From contig JASANG010002252.1 in NCBI GenBank assembly GCA_030248215.1, positions 107,994 through 171,993 of the forward strand: 64,000 nt of DNA, written 5' to 3'. Positions 24,514 to 57,592 of the stretch are shown piece by piece (position 1 is the stretch's first letter; each line of letters begins with the position of its first letter). The notes below the pieces were generated by a model. The model had not been told where the DNA came from. It was given only the letters and a program-made list of their open reading frames with translations, and did no database searches. The position numbers and the translations under genes were made by a program. The DNA is from Enoplolaimus lenunculus (lineage: Eukaryota > Nematoda > Enoplea > Enoplida > Thoracostomopsidae).

Positions 24514-24722
24514 ATGCCTAAGGCTAAGCCTAAGCCTAATCCTAAGCCTAAGGTTTAACCCATTAGTCATTTAAGGTTTAATCTTTGTTTAAACCATAAC
24601 ACTATTCCTCAAGCCTCAACATAACCCTAAGTCTGAGATTTAGTAACCTACGCCCAAGCCTAAAGCCTAAGCCTAAGCCTAAGCCTGCGCCTTAACCTAA
24701 GCTTAAGCCTATTAAGCCCAGG
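24514..24722 (-). repeat. Degenerate TTAGGC array
   Basis: Runs of CCTAAG/GCCTAA (minus strand TTAGGC) at both ends of a ~200 bp block with unrelated sequence between. It directly follows the G-rich minisatellite. No 8-bp target duplication was found around this copy. Confidence 0.6.
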
Positions 24723-25291
24723 AGTAAGGGTCTATGTCTAATAGTGATGGGCATGGAATATTTTATCATATCCAGATATTGTAAAAATTATTGTCGTATC
24801 CAGATATCCGGATATCCGAAATTAAATTTTGCTTTCGCGTTTCCGAATCTCAATTTTCGTTTCTCAAACACTTGTTTTAACCTCTTGCTCTATAAAAGGG
24901 AAGTGACCCACAAGCTGATTGCTATGAGCGTAAAACATACAATTCATAAAATAGTTTTTTATATATGCAACTGCTTCAATAGTGGTGGTTATTCGGTTTA
25001 GAAGATTGTAATTACTAATAAATACTTGTGTTCGTCTCCTGCTCGATTCAATCGAACGTCACCCTTTTCTCGACAAGGACCGTACTAGTTTATTACAAAA
25101 ACGTTCCTGACGAGGTGGCGTACGCCGCCCCGCCATCTTTTCTCTGAATTCACTAGTTTCCGCTTTCTCGCTAGACCACAATAGAGTGGGCATAAATTTT
25201 AGACTATTAGTTTTTGCTATGGCTTAGGCTTAAGCTTTCCTTTAGACTTGTGCTATTTTAATACGCTGAGGAGGCTTAAACTTTGGAGCAT

Positions 25292-25412
25292 GTTTAGGTT
25301 GTTAAAAGTAATATTTGCCGAACCTTTAGGACCGTCTATAGTCTTAAAATATATCGGTACTTAATGCCGATTTGGCTCCTCATAAAATCTTCCCGAATAC
25401 TTTCAATTAAAA
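25292..25412. repeat. Dispersed repeat, partner at 55333-55450
   Basis: GGTTGTTAAAAGTAATATT through GATTTGGCTCCTCATAA is a diverged copy of 55333-55450 in the same orientation. No termini recognised. Confidence 0.5.
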
Positions 25413-26520: not shown

Positions 26521-26800
26521 AAGGGTTGCGCTATACGTGACGTCCGGCACCGTGCGTCTACGCGCATCACCCGTACTGCGCCGTCCGTCACCATGCGTCA
26601 TCCGTACGGCGCCGTCCGTCACCATGCGTCATCCGTACGGCGTCGTCCGTCACCGTTCGTGCTATGAGTTATCGTGCGTGAGTTATTTGCGTACGATACC
26701 GCACGGTGACGGGCGGCGCCGTACGGCGAGACACGGCGACGGACGGCGCCAAACGGGTGGCGGACGACGCCGGACGCCAATAAAAGTATAGCTCAATCCT
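26521..26800. mobile_element. TA-flanked MITE of CCGTCCGTCACC motifs
   Basis: Flanked by TA on both sides (26519-26520 and 26801-26802). Ends AAGGGTTGCGCTATAC and GTATAGCTCAATCCT are inverted. The interior folds back on itself: CGTCCGTCACC units on the left and GGTGACGGGCG units on the right around GAGTTATTTGCGTACGATAC. Same family as 32179-32317, but with extra copies of the internal unit. Confidence 0.75.
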
Positions 26801-27934: not shown

Positions 27935-28320
27935 AGGCGGCGCGATACTCGTCGCAGCGCTGTCCTCACCCGTACAGCGCCTCCCGTCACCCTGCGTCAC
28001 CCGTACAGCGCCGTTCGTCACCGTGCGTCACCCGTACAGCGCCGTCCTTCACTGTGCGTCATCCGTACAGCGCCGTCCGTCACCGTGCGTCACCCGTACA
28101 GCGCCGTCCGTCACCGTGCGTCACCCGTACAGCGCCGTCCGTCACCGTGCGTCACCCGTGCCGCGCCGTCCGTCACCGTGCGTCACCCGTTCGGCGCCGT
28201 CCGTCGCCGCGTGTCACCCGTACGGAGCCGTCCGTCACCGTGCGTTGTCGTACACAAATTACACACGTATGATACCGTATTGTGACGGACGGTGACACGG
28301 TGACGGACGTGACGGACGGC
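27935..28320. repeat. 31-bp GC-rich minisatellite with inverted tail
   Basis: About nine tandem copies of a 31-bp unit (GCCGTCCGTCACCGTGCGTC plus ACCCGTACAGC) run from about 27960 to 28250, in one place exactly 31 bases apart. They are followed by an inverted tail (GTGACGGACGGTGACACGG). The unit is the same motif that builds the TA-flanked MITEs at 26521 and 32179, so the array probably grew from a member of that family. All three frames are open, giving the spurious 147-156 codon ORFs here. Confidence 0.8.
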
Positions 28321-31300
28321 CTTTATATCGTTTCTGAGTTAAAAAATAAAGCTTAGATTTTAGTTTTAGACTAAAAACCCAATCTGTTTATCGCAAAGAT
28401 CCTGCCAGAATTTGCAATTGCTATTTTTGTCTTCGCCATTTTAAAATGGAAGATACACATGGACACTTATATTTAGAACGTAAAGGTGTTGCATATTGAT
28501 AAGAAAAACAAAGATAACATGCGCGCAATAGCAAAAGATATGACTATCAAACATAGGAACTGCAACAGGCGCCGCCGTCGAGCAGATTGTTGGCAAATTA
28601 ATTTGCAGGAACGCTGAGTAAATGCCGGTTCGGTAGGGTTCGACTCAAGCTTGCGGCTCTACCTACCTTTCCTTAAAACACTTTTAAATCACATACTTGT
28701 AACATTCTGTTTTTCACTTTTGTGGAACCATCAAATGGTAAGAAATCTTACAAACGCAATGAACCAGATAATTATTCGCCCAACGCTATTTGTTTTTAAC
28801 TTTCTTCAATGATAAAATCCGAAAAAGATGCAGGATATGTGTGGCCCAGGGACAGTGGTGGATTAAAAATTTATAAGGAGGGCGCGCGAGATACAATAGC
28901 GGAAAAAACACTTGCGAGTCAAGCGAACAAGAAGCTGAACGCCATTTTAGTGCTCAACCTCACTATCTTAGCATTTGCCCCTCTTTTGTTAAATGTAAAA
29001 AAGCTTCTCAGCAAATGAGTTCATACCTCATAAAAAATTTTACTTAAAATATTTGGTAATCTTTTGTAAAAGATTTTTATTTGTCTTGTGTCAATAGCTT
29101 GACCGATAAACGCAAGGTTATACTTAGGAATGTACTTTCAAATGGTTTTGATCCATACTAAATAGTATATAGACTGGGGTGCAATGCTATTCGATCCGCC
29201 AGTGACCATTCTCGTATAGAGAGGAAATCATAGTGTCCATCGCGCAATTGAAGGTCATTACGGTCACAGGTAGACGCTAATAATTTTTGAATTTTGTTTG
29301 AAATGAACCACATTTCTCGGCAGCGCGACTGCGGGCGTGGTTTGGCCGTTTCTCTGACCATTTTAGGGTCTGCTTGTTTATATTAAATCCTGCATTGCGA
29401 ATTTGATAAATGAAGAGTGTGTGTTTTACCATTAAAAGTAAATGTAATATATACTACATATGTCTCTGGTATATCGCAGTGAGCTATATGTATCAGGCAC
29501 TGGCGGTATTTGGTCGAGACGGAAGCATCGTGGTCCGGTAAGTATATTGCTTGTTTCAAACAATACATATCTGATCCAACTCTGAAGGGTACACCAGTTA
29601 CTCGCGGGACCACAAAAGGTTCGGAGTGCAACGGTAAACACTTCTGCACTTATAATTTGTTGGGGCGTCGAGACAGTTTCAATCTACTATTTGTGCTCGG
29701 GCATGTGGGATTGATTCGAACCAGCGTTCGCCGGATCGGCATGGTCAGCTGGCGGGCCCGCCGCCAAGCTCCCAGTTGCCACCAGAGGCAAATAGCTGTT
29801 TGGGGTACGACTGAAATTATAAATTCTGTTATCAGGTTTCTTGCTGAGCTCAACTCAGTGCGTACATTTTATATGCTACAGGCGTTTTCAAATCTTCAGA
29901 CCAATGTATAGATCAGGGCCGTAACAGTAGTAAAAAAGCATATTCTTAATTCTAAACTTAAAACTATGCTTAATCGTAAGTATAAAGCCTACACCTACGA
30001 CTAATCCAAAGGATAAGCCGATGTTCAAATATGTAAAATTGAGGTAGGTATACTCATAAAAGCTAAACATAAATTCAATATACCATATACAGCATGTACC
30101 ACAAATTCTTTAGCTTTGCAGGCAATGTTGACATTGAAAATTTGTTTGATATAATTTAGAAATTTAGTTCAGAAACATTCTTAGACATAAAGAAACAGTA
30201 TGCTGTTGTTCTGAGATTACAGGAAGTAAGGTTTTTTCAACCTAAATATAGGTTATGTGCATGATGGTACAAAATGAGTTCAATGTTACTACGCTTTTAT
30301 TTCCGTTTCTATTGCGTGCGTAGGTATACAGCTTTTTTTTCAACGTACGCATATCTAAATTTAAAAAATGTTTTGGTCAGCAACGCTTATTCTCTGGTTT
30401 CGTAATCAGAGTTTAACGTAATGTATTGCTGAATAGATGCTTAATGATTTTTCAGCAATGTATACTCAAGCTTCAGTTAACGGTTGATTTAAATATCAAT
30501 ATTTTGCTATAAAACAAACGTTGGATGATATATAACATAACAAGAGTGTGCAACTGGGTACATTCTGTGTACAAAACAACGTGCTCAGCGCACGTTGCGT
30601 TTTTGGCCGACCCCCTCCATCTCATATTTAGAGGGGGGTTGAAATTTGCACAGAGCCAAAGAAATACATAATATGCCATGCCAAAAAGTGTTCCGTATAT
30701 TGTCTAAAAACTACAGAGTATTATATATTGAGACATCGTCCCACCCTTTAATTAAGGTGGCCGGTGGGGGTACAGAAAATATGCCACGCGTGTTGGTACT
30801 TTTGGTGCCATGTGAAATCCGACTGCTTCATACTCTTGTCCGTGATCATCCACTCTTGCTATAATTAAAAACTGTACCGATACTTTTCCTGTATACTCCG
30901 AAACAACAGTATAATAATTCTGAGGTACCTGTTACCAATTGCTGATAGATGCCGGTAGCTTTGTAACCATAGTGAATGATTGGCAATTTTCACACATATT
31001 GCGGGTTTCAATTTGTACTATTATGTAAAAAATTTTAAGATAACACGGTTTTGCTGGACCGAAAATTTTACTCCAACAAGATCAACAATAAAAACGATCG
31101 CAGGTTTTGGAGTTGAGAGATTGAAATTGTGTAATTTCAACATCATTCAAGTATACTGATTGACGAGGTATAGACAAATAACTGTTTTTATCGCTGTGTC
31201 AGCTGCATGCACGGCCGCCCCAATCTATTTCACGTAACTTGTCAGCCATTAACTCAATCGCAAGGAATTTGACCCCATTTAACTCAGCTTCACAAAATAC

Positions 31301-33203: not shown

Positions 33204-36200
33204 ATGTTTCTGTACTACGTGGCGGCGTTGGTCAAAGGCTTATATCCGCGATGCGATGACGATTTTGTTGACAAGCTCAACTATTATTACACATCAGCGG
33301 TGTTGTTTGCGTTTGCAATTGTTGTCAGTGCAAAACAGTATGTCGGCTATCCAATCCAGTGCTGGGTGCCAGCACAGTTTACTGGTGAGTGTGTTAATTT
33401 TTTCTTTAATGTTTGAAGCCTGGTTGATTTAAACTATCGAATATCTCACAGAACAGATTCAAAGTGAACGCCGTAAATTCCAGTTACTTGATTTTAATTC
33501 AAAATGAGTTGAATCACTGCTTGAATTTGGTCTTTCAGAACTCAGAATTGTGAATGAACTGAACTTCATTCTGAGTTAATTAATCAACTCACAATGAGTT
33601 AATCAGCTCATAGCGAGTTATTGTTTACTGTTAACTCAGAAATAACCAGGAATCACAAATTCAGTCTCTGAGTTGATTAATCAACTCAATGTAATTTACA
33701 GTGCACGCACAAAATCGTAGGTTAGAAACCTGAAATACAGCTGAAAACGAAGCCAGCCATAAACGATCGTGAACCTAAAATTTGATCATTTGTCTGTATC
33801 AAAGCTTCATAAGCGGATAGAGTCTCGAAACCCTAATTAGAGTCCATGAATGTCAATTAACCCTAATTGTAGCGCATAAATGACTTCAGGGCCAAATAAT
33901 TTGAGTTCGAAACTTTAAAGTGTACTTAAATTTTGAAAACACATTACTAAAGTATAACCTTGTATTATCGCTCAGGCTGATGAAACAAGACAAATAAACG
34001 TTTAATTGAACGGATAATTGCAGTACCGGATATATATCAGTCACGAAGGGCGGCGAAGCGTGGTTTATAAATAAACAACAGTCCGTAACCGAATAACAAG
34101 GGGGGGTCCGCTCTGGAAAAGCCAAATAAATATCAGTCCCCCTCTTATTCGGGTCACTACAGTATATATAAGTGGCCAAAAACGCAACGTGTGCATGGTA
34201 TATTTTTTCTACACAGAATGCACCTAGTTGCATGCTCTTGTCATAGCGTAAATCATCCACTCCTTGCTTTTACTAAGTAAATGGCCCATGCTTAGAACAG
34301 GGTCATATCGTTTTCCGGAGGGGCTACAATAGAGTCACTTTAAGCTTTAGACTAATTTTTTGCTTAGGCTTTAGGCTTAGGCTTAGGCTTAGGAATAGGC
34401 TCATCCATACGCATAGGCTTAGGCTTAGGAATAGGCAGGCCTAGGAATATACTTACACTTTTTCCGGCCCTATTCTAAACATGGGCCAAGTAAATAATAT
34501 GTTTAGATGCATGGGAACAATATACAGAAAACTATTGCTGGGTCCAATCGACATACTATGTGCCACCTCGTAGTACAATCACAACTCCGGGCGGAACCAA
34601 GCATCCCTTCAGTCCACATCCGTACCGTAGAGTTGGTTACTACCAGTGGGTTCCATTTGTGCTCGCTCTTGAAGCATTAATGTTCTACATTCCGTGTCTG
34701 ATGTGGCGCGGTCTTACAAATATGTACTCTGGTAAGCATTCAATGCCCTCCTCTCAACAGACAGTTAACTTTGATTGAGAGTTACAGTAAACCGATTTTT
34801 GCTTTGCGTCAAACATGAAAATAACATATTTTGCATTCGCTGTGAATCAATATTAAGTAGAGCCATTGAAACCGGCAGATCAATCAGACCTGTAACCAGC
34901 CAAATTTGTTACGGTGGTTAAACATTTTTTATGGAGGGGATTAGAAGGGTTTTCGTTGACTTACAAGCAAGGTTGAAAATTTTCTAGTAGGGGGTTTTTC
35001 CAGCGGGGCTGAGTCCCCCTGACTCACATCCCTTGGTTACTGGTCCGGGATCAGCAACTCAGAGAACTGTCATGTTTAGTAACATAGTGATTAAAAACTG
35101 CTTCAAAATTTTGCAAGAAGCGCCGGATTTGCGGATACAGTTTTGATCGCCAGCGAGAAGTCAAACGCAATTTTAGTACGAAAGCTTAACAAAAAATCTG
35201 TTTTGACCTCTGTTCGGGGCCTCTGTCTGCGTGCCAAAGAATTGCCTAATATTCGGTTATGAAATAATATTCGATGCCCGCCACTACAATGAAGTCTGTG
35301 AACCATTTTCAGTCATGATGTAATCACATTGTAGGTATTAGCATCCAAGGAATCAGTCAAATGGCATGCGATGTGCGACTTCTTGATCCAGAGCGGCGGT
35401 CGCGTTCAATCCAAACGATTGCGTCGCATATTGAAGATTCATTGACAATTGGCGATAGGCTTGCTGCAGCGCAGGCGGAAGGAACTGTCCTGTAAGCATT
35501 TTGTATAAAATTCAAGATCTGTATACGGATTTCAGTCCATGCAATTGTCGGTTCACTAAGCCTAAACCTCAGCCTGAGCATACGCCTAAGTCTAAGCCTA
35601 ACCACAAGCTTAAGCATAGCCCAATTTTAATCCGAAGCCTACTAACCTCTAAGTATATAAGTCCGCATGTATCCACATCTCCCAATCGCCAGGTCCCCAT
35701 TGAAGACGTTATGACATGCCTTCAGGTCAGTAGCAATAGATGCGATATAAACTCAAAGCCCTCAGAACATATTTGCTCAATATATTTGAAGAAAATTACT
35801 TTGATTTTATTAAGTAAGTAGTGTGCACAGTTCATAGGTTTGCTACTTTTTTGCTTATATACTAACGGGTAAGAATTGATTTAAACGTAACCAATGACCC
35901 ACGTAGACTATAGAGGCCTGCCTACTAAACTGAAGACTAAATCAAAGTTTAACAAATATAAGCCTAATGTTAAGATTAACCCAAAGCCTGAGCCTAAGCC
36001 ATAGTATTCCATATGCTTAACAGGAGATAGTTTACCACATTGTTTCTAAATATTTTATGTACCATAACATCTATGCATTTGAAGTCTTCCCGCTGTTCCA
36101 CAGTCTCTCTATGAGAATATCACAATAATTAACGTAAAGCGTATCCAATTAAAATTTCCCACGGCATATTGTTCCACAGATGACAGCTATTTTCAGAAGC

Positions 36201-39200
36201 AATTTTGCTGCGTCACTGCAGTTGCGAACTGGATGGTTGAGTGCAGCTTATGTTTCAATCAAATTGTTATACGCTGCAAACGTCAGTGGCCAACTTTTGC
36301 TGTTGAGCGAATTCTTGGGAGCTCATGATATTCTTTATGGTTTGCGTTTACTGCGAGAGTTGTGTTTTGGTGAATCGGACGCCGTTCGACAACATGTCGG
36401 AGGTGTTAACTTTCCTCGCATTACACTGTGTGATTTAGATGTAAGCAGATCTAACGAGGCATCAGTTTCGGCGCTTTGCCGCTTTGAGTACTCAAATCGC
36501 GTAGTGTACGTTATTTGGTCCATAAACCAGCTGCTAAGACTTTTCGACTATAACCATTTGCGGATTCTATTTCCGGATATAGGCCGTTTTGATTCAGATT
36601 AAAATAGGGACTTCTCATATTGTTCCGCGTTTATCTGATCCTAACTCAGCTATACGAGTTTGACTCGCAGTGATGGTAAATTGAAATCAGCTATGTTTTA
36701 GGTTCGCGTCCTAGGCAACGTTCAACGTCATACCGTGCAATGTGTATTAATGATCAATTTATTCAACGAAAAAATATTTTTATTTTTATGGTTTTGGCTC
36801 GCGTTGATGTCAACAATATCAACTGTTTCCATGTTTCACTGGTTAATTGTCACCGTTATTCCGAGTAAAATTTTTAATTTTAGCTTTTGCAGTTTGCCCA
36901 GACAGCAGGGATTGGTTTGTAAAGGTTACAGGTCAAGCTTAGAGTTATCTCTGAATTATACACTACAAAACTACCTTGACTTTAAAAAATATGATATTAT
37001 GAGAAGTATAAGGGTGCAGCAAGAAGGAGAGCTCACAAGATTTGGACTGTAGGCATTTTATACTCGCTACGCTCAGATGGTTGCATCTGTTATATTTTTC
37101 AACCCTCCATACGTGACCGTCCCGTTTTCGAAAAACTAGAAATACTCTAAAATAAAAACGGCAATGATATTTGTCAAAGGATAACAAAACTGCTTTGCTT
37201 TTAGGTACTTACAAAGGAAATTTTCTACCTCTAAATATACAGAACGCTTCAAATATCTGCGACTCATGAAACATAATGTTAAACTTAATTTAAATTATAA
37301 ACAATGAGGGCCCATGTAAAGATCAGGGGCTGATGTTTTTCCGTGAACCTGCAATATAGAGTAAGATTAAGCTTTAGACTTATTTTTATTGCTTGGCTTT
37401 AGGCTTAGGCTTAGGCTTAGTACTATGCTCATTCTTACGCTTAGGCTTATGTTTATGCTTAGGAGTACGCTTATAAAACTGTTCGGTCTCTGTTCTTTAC
37501 ATTGGCCACAATGAGTAATAAAAGTTATATACGGAACTCGTTTATGCTTTCTCATTTAAATATTGTGTCTGGGACTATAATTTAAAATGTTGGCAATCTA
37601 TATTCAGATTGTCTGCTTAAATTTCCAGGTCAAAAGGAACGCTTCATTAAGCGATATTTGAAAGCGTCTGAAGTTGCGCTAGAAAGTCAAGCAACGCGAA
37701 AATTTGTTCATTGCTTTCTTGGCTCGGATGCTGTTTTTTGTTTGAGGATGGTTGCGTTACACGCCGGCGACTCGTTGACGTCACAGGTGAAATTTTAGTG
37801 CCAACAAAGATACGTTTGGATTCTCTCTCGCTCGATAAGATTTTTAATATAATGCATATTGCACGCTCTCTCCGTTAGAAATTTCTAGATCCGCTACTGA
37901 TACCGCTCGTACAGTTTCCGAGAAATGTATAGATGTTACAAAATTTACGTAAAGATTTTAGTGTTCTAAAGTTTAATCAGTGCCTTGCTTAGAGTTCTTC
38001 ATGCCTTCCAAATAGGAATCCTCGTAAAACCGACCCAAGGGACACTCACAAAATTTTTAAATACCTAATTTTACCAGTAAACTGGCAGCTTCGACGTAAA
38101 TACTAAAATTGTTTCTGTCTCTTCGTTCGCTGACACTCACGGCGAAAATAGCGATGTATTTATCAAAAAACAATTTTGAGATGTTTCCATTTTGGGCCCC
38201 CCATACTTACACTGGCATCAGGGAAACCCCCGTACTTACACGACCGGCCACAGGTTTGAATCGTTTTCAGTTTCCAGTATTCGAAATTTTAAAAATCAAC
38301 TTTCTTGTGTTGTTACTCATTGTTCATTTTTTACGCGAGTTAAGCTTCACTTAATGAGAGGTTTTCAGTATATATAATACCGTAATTGCAGGTTTTGTTT
38401 AATTTAACCGAATATGAACAAAATAGTGCGTAATGCTTTGTTTCAAAGCAAGTAGCGCTCCAAACTTATATACACTGACCAATTATGTGAACCAGAATTT
38501 TGAACTAAGAGTTTATCTTAACAATTTAGACAAGCGTTTGCAACCTGGTATGTACCAGCACGTGTTCCGTTATGTGCTAATCCCTCCCAACGATTTATAT
38601 GCAGTTTAACAAGTTTCTTCGTTACATTTTTAAAGCCTTTCTTTACTGTGGTGTTTCAAACCCCCCTTGAAAATATGGTATAACAAAAAAATGGACAGGC
38701 TTCAGTAGCTATGCTACCAAATAGGCAGGTTACATACATTTGTCCAACGAGTCGACATCAACTTTTTTAACTTACAAACTTTCCGGTCCATGTTACTTTT
38801 AGGCCGTTCCGTTTCGCGCAAGACTGCAATAGAGTATTGATTAGATTTTAGACTATTTTTTTGCTTAGGCTTAGGCTTATAGGATTAACACTTATTTCTA
38901 CGCTTATGCTTACAAATATGTTTAATCTAGAGTAACGGCCCTAAAAGTAGTAAACATTAATCAACTTTCCAGCTAATTGTAACCCTTTGGCACAACTTCT
39001 ATGATCATATTGGTGGAACCGGTGGAGGCTACAGTCAAGGTGAGAGCTGCGCTACTGGGCACACAATTGCATTCAATACTTGTGAACCAATTTTGGGTGA
39101 TTTACCGCTGATGTCATCGACAATATTTGGCAATCTGGCTTCGCATCATGCAACGTTAGGTGTCCAGCATCAATTTCAACGGAGAGGTTCGTCTAGGCGC

Positions 39201-39779: not shown

Positions 39780-40403
39780 TAGGTATCATGGAGTTGTGAT
39801 TTAACATAATGTTGGCACATATTGCGCATAAAACGAAATTCGGCCTATGTCAACTATTGGGGTCCGTCCATTAGTAAACAGGGGAACTGGCAGACTGAAA
39901 GACTGGAAAGCCTAAGCTTAGGCTTAGGCTTAGGACTATGCTTATGTTTACATTTCGGCTCAGACTTAGATATTTAAGCTTAGACCTTATCATTTTTGTC
40001 ACAAAAAATTCTGACGGGGGCAAACCTCCCGCCCTCCAGCTAGTACAAACAATTTCACAGTTTTCTAAATCTTCATTCGTGTTACCCAGTTTTTAGTTTA
40101 ACAGCGGAGATTCGCATGAAAACGAAATCCCCTTTGATGTCATACACTGATATTTTTTGGCCGTTAGCGCTCAGTGGTTTGAACTGTTAGAATATACAGA
40201 ACTTTCCAAACTACCTTAGTAACCGTAGAACAGCTATAGTTTTATGAGCTTGGACCTTGTTTTTAATTACTCAATTAAGGCTTTCTTTTGTTTGATGAAT
40301 TAAAATTCGGCTCGTTCTTCTAGAACACTATTAATAACTTTTAAGGAGGTACTAGTGTAGCTTAAAACGAAGCCAGTACTTTCTGGTCATTTCTTTTACT
40401 CTT

Positions 40404-42225: not shown

Positions 42226-42449
42226 GGCCAGTGTAAAGACCAGGGGCGGAACAGTAATAAGCATATTCCTAAGCCTAAGCCTAAGCCTAAGCCTAAGCCT
42301 TAAGCCTAAGCATAAGAATGTGTTTATTCCTAAGCCTAAAGCCAAAGTCTAAGCCTAAGCCCAGCAAAAAAATTAGTGTAAAGCTTAAGCTTACTCTATT
42401 CTAGTCCCACAGAAAAATGTTCCGCCCCTGATCATTATATACATGGGCC
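42226..42449 (-). mobile_element. GGCC-ended MITE with the longest TTAGGC-like array
   Basis: Starts GGCCAGTGTAAAGACCAGGG, ends CCTGATCATTATATACATGG plus GCC. The body is at least five consecutive CCTAAG units followed by AAAAAAATTAGTGTAAAGCTT, the reverse orientation of the family body. The flanking octamers GAGTCACG and GGATCACG match at six of eight bases. Confidence 0.8.
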
Positions 42450-48938: not shown

Positions 48939-49119
48939 GGCCAATGTTGCTTCAAGGGGCGTAATAGTTTTTCCGCGCGACTGCAATAGTGAAAGCTTTC
49001 GCTTTAGACTAACATTTTTTGCTGAGGCTTAGACTTAGTAATATGCTTATCCTTACTCCGAGGCTTAGGCTTGAGAATATACTCATATTGCTATTACGCA
49101 AATCAAAGTAACATCGGCC
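48939..49119 (+). mobile_element. GGCC-ended MITE with TTAGGC units
   Basis: Starts GGCCAATGTTGCTTCAAGGG, ends CAAAGTAACATCGGCC. Flanking octamers AAACAAAA and AAACACAA match at seven of eight bases. The body has AGACTAACATTTTTTGC then degenerate TTAGGC units. It occupies the ~870 bp gap between stomatin and DPH6, ending 15 bp from the DPH6 stop. Confidence 0.8.
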
Positions 49120-49133
49120 AAACACAATCTACC

Positions 49134-49913
49134 TCACTTCGGTTCTAAATGCATTTTATTCAACTTCAAATATCCAACAGGAGCAAAAGCATCCGCTGAA
49201 TGTATCACCGTTTCTGCATCGTCAATCACAATCCGTCCTGCAGTGAACAGAGGGCAATCAAGCACGAGTGATTCAAATTCACCCCCTTCACCGCACTCAT
49301 TTAACCCATATTTCGCATTCATCTGAGTCATATGCGGCGCAATTTCTTCTAAAGTCAGACCCAAATGCACCACGGGATCTAATCCCATAGCGGCGACTTT
49401 AATGACAATCGCTTTAATATCTGCCGAAATCATTTCTTCCAACAATTCCTTTTGAGGTCGATGCCACAAGTACGCCAACACGTTGAGTCCCAGACGCTCG
49501 GCAACATTTTCAACTCTGACGCGTTGATAATCGGAAAATATCGCTCCAACTGAAATGGCGTCAATGAATTCACTAGCGATAACATCTTTCAGTAACGCTG
49601 TTAAATCTTCAACTTCGTCCCTGGATCCAGCAGAATCGGTGTCCATATCCGGTTCATATTGTTCTTTGAGTTTCAGCGGCGCGCCTTTGATCTCTCGACG
49701 GTACAGAGGCAAGCCTCCCATCGCTTTACTGTATAGCTCGATTGCATTTGCACCTACTGATTGATACATATACGAGTCGAGTTCGTCAACATCTGGTGGT
49801 GGATGTAAATTCGCAAGACAAACTAATTCGTGTCCATCGGCAAAACACTTCATCGCGTTGTAGCAACTATCTTTACCGCCGCTAACCAATGCGCATACGC
49901 GATATTTTTTCAT
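49134..49913 (-). CDS. DPH6: Diphthine--ammonia ligase, single exon
   Basis: This is a complete, intronless 259-residue protein, close to the usual ~265 of the family. DPH6 catalyses the last step of diphthamide synthesis, ATP-dependent amidation of diphthine on elongation factor 2 in the cytosol. The N-terminus VCALVSGGKDSCYNAMKC carries the ATP-pyrophosphatase P-loop SGGKDS (residues 11-16). Other family blocks are SVGAIFSDYQRVRVENV, LAYLWHRPQKELLEEMI and the C-terminal NECGEGGEFESLVLDCP with EGGEFE at 209-214. An inserted acidic stretch (MDTDSAGSRDEVED) lies in the middle. Lack of introns among intron-rich neighbours could mean an old retrocopy or simple intron loss; the frame is intact, so it is probably functional. 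Confidence 0.95.
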   Translation of the reverse strand: MKKYRVCALVSGGKDSCYNAMKCFADGHELVCLANLHPPPDVDELDSYMYQSVGANAIELYSKAMGGLPLYRREIKGAPLKLKEQYEPDMDTDSAGSRDEVEDLTALLKDVIASEFIDAISVGAIFSDYQRVRVENVAERLGLNVLAYLWHRPQKELLEEMISADIKAIVIKVAAMGLDPVVHLGLTLEEIAPHMTQMNAKYGLNECGEGGEFESLVLDCPLFTAGRIVIDDAETVIHSADAFAPVGYLKLNKMHLEPK

Positions 49914-50014
49914 TATGTACTGTATGAGTTATTACACGACCATAAAGTAGCAAAGAGCGAATCAAAATTAAGGCTACCCATAAGTAGATGAGGGCCGGAC
50001 CTTCCGAGGGAGTT

Positions 50015-51266: not shown

Positions 51267-51419
51267 GTACTGCTTCTTAGAATTACCAATTCTTATAGCA
51301 GGGTCATGGTGACCCACTAGGTCTATTCCGGTTCGGAGAAAATTAGATTTTCGGCTGTGGCAGAATTTGTGTATGAAGTTCTGGTAGTTGTGGCAGCGAA
51401 ATTATTGGTATTTTGTATA

Positions 51420-51590
51420 ATGTATAGAACAGGGCAGTTACAGTAGAACAAGCATATTCCTAAGCCAAAGCCTAAGCGTAAGAATGAGATCATAGCTAAT
51501 CCTAAACAAAAAATTAGTCTAAAGCTTGCTTATTCTATTGCAGTACCGCAGAAAAACGTTCCGCCTCTGATCTTTACATCGACCGGTATT
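51420..51590 (-). mobile_element. GGCC-ended family MITE, worn copy
   Basis: GTATAGAACAGGGCAGTTAC at the left and CCGCCTCTGATCTTTACATC at the right. Degenerate CCTAAG units and AAAAATTAGTCTAAAGCTT in between, as in 42226-42449. Confidence 0.6.
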
Positions 51591-54040: not shown

Positions 54041-54802
54041 ATGAAGACGAAAAATACCAAAACCGCCGCAGCCAAAGACAAAATACTGTAACGCAAGTAT
54101 GGGAATCTTAAGTTTAGTAATAAGTTTGTAATATCCGGAAAAGGTTTTAGTTCAAGCAACGTTTCCCAAAAAATACAAACAAGATCGCTGAACTGTGCAA
54201 CTTGAACTGTACAAGTAGCATGATCGAAAATTAATGGTCAGGAGCTGAAAAATACCACAATCGGAGGTCGATTCAATTTACAGCAGGCGGAGGTGAAGTA
54301 AAACATAAGCAGTAAAAATTATGCTGAATTCGCTAACTTTACAAACAAATTATGCAGTCAAAAATTAGTTTTTGCGCTTCTTTCGGTGCCTCAAAGTTTA
54401 CAGCGTCGCTGATCGACATCAGGATTGTTGAGAATTCCATCGGAGACGGGTTCGATTTTCTGCACATCAAGACGTTGAATTCTAGCTTTCAAAATTAGGA
54501 ACTTCAGGTAAAATTTATTTACTGGAGCCGGAGATATTACTTGTCTACGTTTTCAAGAATGTTTACCTCAATCTGAACCCAGCATCAATTCGTAAGAATA
54601 TTAAGATGGGTCGCTGTCGCTCGCTCCTGAAGCTGTCTACTACACAATCTTGATAAATTCTAATAAAGTTTACAAGGCTGCGTTTTTCGCACAATATGAA
54701 AACCGCTTAGTGCAAGGTGCTTAGGCGCGGTAACGGCAATCTTTTTAGACCAATTTTAAATTATGGGGGAGAGGGAGCTTCAGAGAGGCCGCAGCGCTTA
54801 TG

Positions 54803-54920
54803 GCCCATGTAAAGATCAGGGGCGGAAAGATTTTGTGGGACTAGAATAGAGTACGCTGAAGCTTGAGACTATTTTTTGCTTGGCTTAGGCGTAGCCTTTG
54901 GCTTAGGAATATGGTATAGT
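54803..54920 (+). mobile_element. GGCCCATG MITE, left half only
   Basis: GGCCCATGTAAAGATCAGGG followed by AGCTTGAGACTATTTTTTGC and two TTAGGC-like units. The right end is lost. Confidence 0.6.
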
Positions 54921-57592
54921 ACGATCATACGCACAGATAACTTGCTGATCATCGACAGCAAGTAACCAACTAAGTGAGGTGTTGTATTTTTAAACAAGCG
55001 CCATATATAGATTTCCATCCGTTAATATCCTACGGTCCAATGCGCTCAAAATGCTGATTACGATAACATTTATTATGACAAGACGAATTCACCTGACTAT
55101 AGTGAGTGCACCACAGACGTATGCTAATAGAGGACCTGCAGGATTTAAATACGGATATTTTGGCTAAGTAAAGGTAGCTAATTCTAGGGTTTATAACTAA
55201 TATTCTGCGATACGTGCTGTCTCGGTTGAACACTAGTCTCGGATAACATCTAATTCGAGCCCACGGACAAGCTACATCAGCCCTTATTACTTTTAATGGA
55301 ACCCCACTTTTAATAAAGATCCGTGTTTTGGTTGTTAAATAACTAAAAGTAATATTCGTCGAAGTCTTCAGGAACTACTCTAGTTTTTGTGTAATATTGA
55401 AACATAATGCTGATTTGGCTCCTAATAACCTCCCCTGAATTTCAATTGCAGTGGCTTAAATCAGACGGAGACAAACGAAAACGACTCAAATTAAGAATGC
55501 TAACGCAAGTATTTGTCTTCTAAACCGAATACCCAGAACTATCGAAGCAGTTGCATAGTAAATAACGATTTTTAAAATTGTTTTACTCTCATAACAATCA
55601 TCTTATGAGTCAGAGTACTTCCTTCAGAGCAACAATTGAAAACAAGTGGTTAAGGAACTGAAATAAAAACTCAAAATCGAGCTTCACACATCACAAATAG
55701 AATATATGTGGCTACGGTAGAATTTTTGCCAGAGGTTCTGGCACTTTCGGTAGCAAAATTTTACAAAATTTAAATATTGGCTAAAATTAATTAAATATCA
55801 TTTGTACTACTAAGTACTTAATTTAGCCTCACCTCCGTCTCCGGCAGGTTTCGCTGACCTCCGGCTCCGGTATTTTACACCTCCAGTTGCACCCTACCGG
55901 AAAAATATCCGGCAAGAATTACCACATACCCCGATATGAAAAAATAACCGATGCCCATCACTAACCCTGATATACATATGATTGATAACAACTAACACGT
56001 CACACTGATATACCCAGCTCGAAAAAAACGCGATAACTGAGAAGTTTACTGTTCAAACACCTGCTATACATTAGTGGATAAATAGACCAATGAAAAAGTG
56101 TTAAGAAGACTGAAAAACATTCAACTTCATTGGAGTGGTGTGCCATATGTTGTGCATGAAACTGCATAAAATCTAAACAGCCACTTGTAAGCAGTACTTA
56201 TTTTAGAACTCGTTCGGGGTTTACAATATGAAAACTGGGAGTGCTATGGTTATATTTTGTCGTACAGTGAATTGTAACTATGTAATTCTTCCGATTTCCA
56301 ATTGCACCTGTTATAATAGTCTACACAGATCTTGTAAGCTTTTCCGCCTGATCTAAAATTAAGGCTTTCGGAAATCTAAATCTAGGCTTGTGAGGTCTAG
56401 GCTTGTATTCGAAGGTAGACAAGTGTATATACAAGAGCCGTGCTGCCTGTCAACATAAACAGACCTGACCTAATTAACTGAATGACTTTTTGTCCGTTTT
56501 ATGAACGCCCAGTCATACTGTTGTTCTACTATTATACCGTCCCAAATGTACGCAGCTTGTAGCATCAACTGTTGCTCTGCAATATACACTTCGTGCAAGT
56601 ATATAAAACGGGGCGTTCGTGAAAAATGTAAAACACGTCGACTATTCGTGGAGCAAATTTCACTTTTAAAAAGTTTAAAACATCAAAGAATGTGCCTGCA
56701 TGGAAAGATTATTTACAAAAAATCACACATCGTGTACAAATACCTTAAACTCACAATGTAAAAACACACACAGCACAATTTTATGTTGTACTTTGTTGAC
56801 ACAAGAAATTGATAGAAACAAAAACACAGAAAAATATATTTTTAGTGCATACACAATGTGTATGTATCAGGCTGTCAACAGGTTCTAGCAATTTTGGTAG
56901 TGCATATTCTTCGCTTTTCTGTAAGTTTTATCGTTCAGTGACTTTGTGTTGGCAAGTTTCGTACAACTTTCTAAGTTTTAATGACCCTGATTTTTCATTA
57001 CAAAATTATTATAAAATGTGTTTTGTATTTTTGGTAACGGATTACAAATTGACGTTAAAATAAGCATATCCAACATTATTTAAAAAACCTTAATTGGATT
57101 CATCCCCGGGCTCCAATTTCGGCTCCGCAAAACATCGCCGACCTCCTGGTTCGGTCTTTTCACATCCCTCACACAGCTTAGACGCGTTTAAAATTGCAGT
57201 TAAAGACGCGGTTCAAATCGCCACTCCGACATAATTAAAATCGCGACTAGGAAAAATAAAATGAGTCTAAAGTTGAGTTATTAATTCAATTTCTGCAGGT
57301 AAAGCCAAGAGTTCCGTTGTGGACACACTGCTGCAGTAGCGAAATAACCTAATGGCATAGCCAATATAAAAATGCGTAACGAACCAGATACTAAATAACC
57401 TGAACTCTGTGTAACTTGCAGTATTAAGCAACATCTGAATGGTAAATACATAACAAAATCAACAAGGTATAAAAAGTTGAAGTAAACTCTCCAATCGTTA
57501 TTCTGACTTAGTTCAGATTAACTCAGCGTCAGGAACTCGCGCCTAAAATTGTCGTGTCCAGCAGCTAAACAATATTTTTAGTTAATTCCAAA

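Follow-up and report, generated by a model that had tools for sequence, protein, structure and literature searches.

A high-copy MITE family spreads arrays of the telomere-like hexamer TTAGGC in the genome of the nematode Enoplolaimus lenunculus

A MITE family spreads an array of the hexamer TTAGGC by transposition in the genome of Enoplolaimus lenunculus. The unit is short (~200 bp), has 27-bp terminal inverted repeats (TIRs), is flanked by target duplications (TSDs) of a fixed length of 8 bp and is present in high copy number. TTAGGC caps most nematode chromosomes, and a high-copy MITE with a telomere-like hexamer array inside is a real, if unusual, form of a known class, MITEs with tandem cores. 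Taken as a whole, the evidence is very probably best explained by a non-autonomous, TTAGGC-carrying MITE family that is moved by a transposase with an 8-bp stagger and whose array changes by slippage or exchange. The family was characterized from a window, the whole analyzed stretch of 64,000 nt (positions 107,994 to 171,993 of contig C507), and from the genome that contains it (296.3 Mb in 3,185 contigs).

Copies and arrays in the window

The element at 34283-34487 (Table 1) has the coordinates, letters and ends given in the initial annotation and a perfect 8-bp TSD. At least 40 further genomic matches to this copy (including a 55-bp fragment) were scored at 81 to 89% identity among at least 1,948 candidates. 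The second perfect TSD claimed, at 37301/37508, agrees at 8/8 positions, and those described as imperfect agree at 6/8 (42226-42449) and 7/8 (48939-49119). The worn copies reported near 38785, 51420 and 54803 are also real, as they were recovered by a profile of 44 aligned copies that included none of the three; the reversed window gave no profile match.

Hexamer pairs greatly exceed the chance level: the window contains 35 matches to TTAGGCTTAGGC at ≤1 mismatch, versus 0.21 expected from dinucleotide shuffles, and these hexamer-pair matches form 13 blocks. The statement that most blocks lie inside the repeated unit was too strong, since only 6 of the 13 are in copies that keep an arm; the remaining 7 are array only, and some of these (e.g., 39909-39983) resemble eroded MITE interiors. 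Exact hexamers number 67 in the window, where ~29 are expected by chance, and 20 lie within the eight copies found by the arm search.

Table 1. MITE copies, their parts and TTAGGC arrays in the window
Feature	Position	Strand	Evidence
MITE copy, subfamily A, 205 bp	34283-34487	+	Ends GGCCCATG/CATGGGCC; read directly; TIR pair and TSD
Left 8-bp target duplication AAGTAAAT of copy 34283-34487	34275-34282		Read directly
Right 8-bp target duplication AAGTAAAT of copy 34283-34487	34488-34495		Read directly; perfect
Left TIR of copy 34283-34487	34283-34309	+	Inverted repeat; TIR-A pattern
Right TIR of copy 34283-34487	34461-34487	-	Inverted repeat
Constant body AAGCTTTAGACTAATTTTTT	34342-34361	+	Read directly; family consensus
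TTAGGC array, two blocks with decayed spacer	34364-34430	+	5 exact hexamers
MITE copy, subfamily B	37309-37507	+	Perfect TSD ACAATGAG (37301-37308/37508-37515); profile match
MITE copy, subfamily B	42226-42449	-	TSD GAGTCACG/GGATCACG, 6/8; profile match
MITE copy, divergent ends (GGCCAATGTTGCTT...)	48939-49119	+	TSD AAACAAAA/AAACACAA, 7/8; profile match
Worn MITE copy, divergent left end (GGTCCATGTTACTTTTAGG)	38785-38942	+	Profile E = 7e-14 over 38803-38942
Worn MITE copy	51419-51583	-	Profile E = 2e-36; flanks agree at 3/8 only
Truncated MITE copy	54802-54933	+	Profile E = 4e-27, profile positions 1-136
Worn MITE copy	25161-25296	+	Profile E = 2e-13; arm match
Worn MITE copy, right half	29900-30022	-	Profile E = 6e-17; arm match
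TTAGGC arrays without MITE arms	24516-24682	-	Hexamer-pair matches; arm search
TTAGGC array without MITE arms	35556-35601	-	Arm search
TTAGGC array, possibly eroded MITE interior (no arms)	39909-39983	+	Profile and arm searches

Evidence for transposition

Copies were sampled genome-wide at the first 70 exact B-end places in contig order, chosen regardless of array content. Two members of a tandem trio were dropped, and 55 of the remaining 68 places had a partner end within 345 bp; anchoring on exact ends favors well-kept copies. Some of the 13 ends with no partner within that distance were displaced by an insertion or a longer array. Perfect 8-bp TSDs flank 19 of the 55 anchored copies, compared with a mean of 0.34 and a maximum of 3 in 2,000 shuffles of partners. 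Agreement was at least 7/8 positions in 34 copies and lower in 21, and TSDs of 4 to 7 and 9 to 11 bp were found zero times or once each. This excess over shuffles, confined to one length, indicates transposition with an 8-bp stagger.

A sample selected for similarity to the window copy comprised 28 copies from 26 loci, two of the copies being B-like; 12 had perfect TSDs and 20 agreed at ≥7/8 positions, and an earlier mixed set gave 18 perfect TSDs among 52 copies. TTAGGC is present in 54 of the 55 anchored copies, and 50 have two or more; GCCTAA occurs at all in a single copy. The claim of the initial annotation that the element spreads the hexamer through the genome is borne out by the TSD, copy number and orientation tests. 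A search for empty sites, which it had proposed, found none among nine joined flanks (55 bp per side) in the one assembly.

Family size and density

With ≤3 mismatches, the TIR-B pattern has 19,578 genome matches (9,824 forward and 9,754 reverse) and the TIR-A consensus pattern has 12,956 (6,360 and 6,596); controls gave none on either strand. The two match sets share members, since the B pattern differs by three mismatches from the right end of subfamily A. As a rough estimate, the family probably comprises tens of thousands of copies. The window has eight copies, or one per 8 kb. Another 42 loci, covering 127,937 bases, yielded 52 copies in addition to the anchors, or one per 2.5 kb, a density biased upward because these loci were fetched for holding a copy or array or as transposon loci. 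Median arm divergence from the consensus is 0.064 in subfamily B (n = 51) and 0.049 in subfamily A (n = 28).

Structure of the element and its array

The left part of the consensus consists of the end GGCCCATGTAAAGATCAGGGGCGGAAC, an arm (GTTTTTCTGTGGGACT...), the body AAGCTTAAGCTTTAGACTAATTTTTTTGC and an array (TTAGGC)n. The right part consists of the spacer AATATGCTCATTCTTACGC, a second array (TTAGGC)m, the arm AATATGCTTATAATACTG and the end TTCCGCCCCTGTTCTTTACATTGGCC. Both consensus ends begin with GGCC, and a further end type, GGCC(A/C)ATGTTACTTTAAGGGGCG, was recognized by eye at 38785, at 48939 and at L011:2133. The array runs in the direction of the body in 44 of 45 mixed-set copies with a recognizable body; seven more copies lack one.

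The interior itself resembles the hexamer. The final 18 letters of the spacer correspond to three hexamer lengths, and 12 of the 18 match in the register of the array, a level reached by 0.00135 of dinucleotide shuffles. Decayed hexamer is also indicated in the left body, by a score that none of 20,000 random sequences and 0.0285 of dinucleotide shuffles reached. The right body gives a weaker signal (0.019 of random sequences and 0.08 to 0.16 of dinucleotide shuffles), and the two ends are not hexamer-like, as 0.92 to 0.96 of random sequences score as high. Since spacer and body resemble decayed hexamer and the ends do not, an old hexamer array between two ends seems to make up much of the interior. 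Capture of the interior from telomere repeats is therefore plausible on the basis of sequence likeness, the stretch between the arrays being itself similar to decayed hexamer.

Array length varies between copies. Exact hexamers per copy have a median of 4 in subfamily B (maximum, 13; n = 51) and of 6 in subfamily A (maximum, 9; n = 28), and block duplications were seen in L139 and L011. One copy (L135) contains 65 perfect units between both arms and has a perfect TSD, AGAACAGG. Another (L050) has 78 perfect units, the right arm, both ends and a TSD of 7/8, with the left body missing, and a third (L139, fetched on the right side only) has 11 perfect units and the right arm. Array purity and length showed no correlation with copy divergence and therefore do not date the dynamics of the array. 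At one further locus (L031; C9:1093-1195), the MITE left end is present in three head-to-tail copies, 38 bp apart, before one interior, possibly the start of satellite formation from the end.

TTAGGC arrays outside the element

Long arrays were sampled as 11 arrays of ≥9 perfect units from the first places listed (L039, L041, L050 and L133 to L140). Three are in the arm-bearing copies described above (L050, L135 and L139) and eight have no arm at the array; for five of these eight, 140 to 240 bp of flank was inspected per side. The armless pure arrays contain 98 (L134, on C86), 78 (L133, on C379), 35 (L136, on C84), 33 (L137, on C47), 20 (L138, on C5) and 9 (L140, also on C5) units, with further pure arrays at L039 and L041 on C1. 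Some edges form sharp, abrupt junctions to other DNA and others are degenerate. A MITE end or copy lies near two of these arrays, ~115 bp from L136 and ~400 bp from L133. The armless long arrays may be independent interstitial arrays.

Genome-wide, perfect (TTAGGC)8 has 1,525 + 2,125 overlapping matches on the two strands, perfect 33-unit arrays have 73 + 434 and 50-unit arrays have 3 + 257; the controls gave none, and (TTAGGG)8 is absent from the genome. Among the matches listed (the first 100 overlapping places), the longest perfect arrays are interstitial, with the exception of that on C379. There (L133:1-500), 78 perfect GCCTAA units in telomere direction begin 18 bp from the contig start; 11 bases outside them are foreign, so the array is not proof of a chromosome end. 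Both a chromosome end and a contig broken beside an internal array are possible.

Candidate transposase

A transposase making 8-bp staggered cuts would recognize the ends and move the unit, and the features of the element are closest to those of the Merlin superfamily. Merlin elements are marked by 5'-GG ends, TSDs of 8 or 9 bp and TIRs of 24 to 462 bp (PMC8101967); the MITE shares the GG ends and the 8-bp TSD, and its 27-bp TIR is within this range. Unlike Merlin transposons, the MITE encodes no transposase, and its ends were not shared by any of the Merlin-domain loci found here. Merlin-domain sequences with open frames are present in the same genome. The MITE ends were absent from the stretches fetched around 15 loci with the domain DDE_Tnp_IS1595, six with ~0.5 to 1.5 kb on each side and nine with 1.1 kb downstream only. 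One of the Merlin transposons (L167:149-2297, on C872) has 417-bp inverted ends beginning GGCAAAGGTACGGAATATCGAC and an 8-bp TSD, AAGTTTGT, which indicates past Merlin activity in this genome with different ends. Related stretches, 94 to 99% identical, are found in L168, L169 and L171. The balance tips slightly towards a partner of Merlin type, which would have been lost, left unassembled or missed. Two other Merlin-domain loci (L163 and L164, on C1378 and C1711) are 98% identical over 2.9 kb, each with the domain, and are possibly retained haplotypes or a segmental duplication.

A direct search for longer relatives covered 243 TIR-like ends in the fetched loci. In nine, the next 80 bp did not score as MITE body, and most of these nine are MITE derivatives, as judged by eye. 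The lone non-MITE sequence behind a TIR-A end (L003:987) was rejected as the end of a longer element: its interior is another dispersed repeat, other matches of which start beyond the end sequence, and no partner end was assignable to it in the next 5 kb downstream.

Alternative explanations

The initial annotation had placed the element in the hAT type, by which the 8-bp duplications would be the work of a hAT transposase. This assignment is unlikely. Its appeal lies in the length of the TSD, in the remains of hAT transposases in the genome (45 domain matches) and in CAGGGGCGGA within the MITE ends, which we take to resemble a hAT terminus; the element ends, however, lie outside CAGGGGCGGA, at GGCC, and so start with GG. 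The hAT target signature is nTnnnnAn (T second, A seventh), whereas position 2 of the MITE TSDs, symmetrized over 34 sites, is A in 35 and T in 18 of 68 cases. The autonomous hAT partner with the same TIR expected by the initial annotation was not found: none of the 24 hAT-domain loci examined of the 45 (4 by stretches of 4.2 to 4.3 kb and 20 by ~750 bp downstream) has the MITE ends as its own. End-like matches at three of them (L072, L146 and L151) belong to MITE copies or to forward-facing ends in the vicinity, and the hAT element at L070 carries ends of another kind, CAGGGTTCTGGTTTGGAACC. The TIR length of the MITE agrees with the 5 to 27 bp that, together with 8-bp TSDs, is given for hAT elements (PMC2874221), but the GG ends, the different target bias and the lack of a partner among the examined loci set the MITE apart from them.

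Two further alternatives concern the hexamers. That the arrays are ordinary interstitial telomere sequence from telomerase-healed breaks or fusions, with flanks shared through later duplication, is very improbable. The long pure arrays that stand apart from the element (L039, L041, L133, L134, L136, L137, L138 and L140) favor such an origin, and stand-alone arrays may well be ordinary interstitial telomere sequence; for the MITE-borne arrays it is refuted by the TSD test, and it cannot yield their constant inverted ends, fixed orientation and 8-bp duplications. A greater, though still limited, chance is given to the expansion of a fortuitous TTAGGC-like motif in the MITE body as a microsatellite, with the stand-alone arrays as eroded MITEs or products of independent slippage. 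This account, which differs from the best explanation solely in the origin of the array, is in line with the degenerate edges and pure cores of L137 and L140, such as slippage gives, and with the long TTAGGC arrays inspected, none of which could be placed at a chromosome end. MITEs with riding microsatellites are also known (PMC6947457). Against it, the exact nematode telomere hexamer would be a notable coincidence, and the spacer too resembles decayed hexamer in register.

In the preferred explanation of a transposed, TTAGGC-carrying MITE, inverted ends of ~27 bp (GGCCCATGTAAAGATCAGGGGCGGAAC and relatives) would enclose a partly decayed, partly fresh array in fixed orientation. At least subfamilies A and B probably inherited the array from a common ancestor, because these two share body, spacer and array direction. 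As for the entry of the hexamer, a telomeric or interstitial array may have been captured between two ends, or a chance hexamer may have grown. Slippage or unequal exchange, acting both on hexamers and on the block of hexamer plus spacer, would account for the observed length variation. A still bolder reading casts the MITE as a vehicle that disperses telomere DNA: its interior would stem from a captured telomeric array, and its thousands of copies, including the 65- and 78-unit arrays, would be seeds for protein binding or for break healing by telomerase or recombination. This reading is quite unlikely to hold in full.

Relation to known systems

No case of telomere-like repeats inside MITEs was found among the entries listed in searches of the open-licence PMC literature. 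MITEs with hitchhiking tandem repeats include insect (GTCY)n MITEs, Xenopus Xstir and the MITE-linked satellites of oysters and other bivalves, as listed in a review (PMC6947457). These are likewise short non-autonomous elements linked to a tandem array, whereas here the unit is the nematode telomere hexamer, the interior is largely hexamer-like and the copy number is high. The microsatellite-associated MITEs of pineapple are also high-copy elements tied to simple repeats, but they insert into microsatellites (PMC8449440), while the present MITE carries the repeat inside. Two nested cases involving TTAGGC arrays (L113 and L132) bear on an insertion preference for such arrays.

Interstitial telomere sequence in Caenorhabditis elegans comprises 1,229 tracts, and telomerase mutants can copy such tracts to their telomeres, according to a review (PMC9071541). 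These tracts are similar in being internal, degenerate TTAGGC; many of those in the present genome differ in having been delivered by transposition within a defined element with its own ends. Internal telomere-like sequence thereby gains a concrete, testable source besides chromosome fusion and break healing, namely, transposition of a hexamer-carrying element. A transposon can also inflate counts of interstitial telomere repeats and the output of hexamer-counting telomere finders. If TTAGGC is the telomere repeat of this species, each copy could serve as a binding site or as a seed for healing, and the genome would offer a natural test of the effect of such sites on chromosome stability.

Genes and other repeats around the element

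Animal genes encoded in the window comprise a diphthine-ammonia ligase (DPH6), two Band 7 (stomatin-type) stretches and one innexin stretch. The closest relative of the DPH6 protein is that of Plectus sambesii (64%), followed by those of corals and spiders (61 to 62%), Romanomermis (59%) and Ascaris (58%), and a 23-row tree gave it no placement. The canonical nematode SL1 leader was not found in the genome at ≤1 mismatch, so that the animal may be a nematode from outside the groups that bear SL1. The MITE copy at 48939-49119 lies 14 bp past the stop of the DPH6 frame (49134-49928), and because of this position its array is probably in the DPH6 3' untranslated region. A GC-rich 31-bp minisatellite (TCACCCGTACAGCGCCGTCCGTCACCGTGCG) is located at 26567-26654 and 27966-28245 of the window, with similar repeats again at L133.

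Other dispersed units are nested in copies of the TTAGGC MITE. One (L017:1556-1754) is a MITE-like unit with CACTGCA...CAGTG ends and apparently a TA duplication; it is rich in GAGTCAAATTYGACTC palindromes, and similar sequence is found in L026 and L039. Another (L030:1611-1879) has TTAACCCTT...AAGGGGTTAA junctions, which are presumably piggyBac-like, and contains a stretch that looks tRNA-like by eye, in which ARAGORN calls no tRNA. A third such unit ends in CTGTATTGACCCGAATAAG/CTTATTCGGGTCATTACAG, apparently with a TA duplication; it is present at 33880-34165 of the window and at L028:2100-2520, where it is nested inside a TTAGGC-MITE copy.
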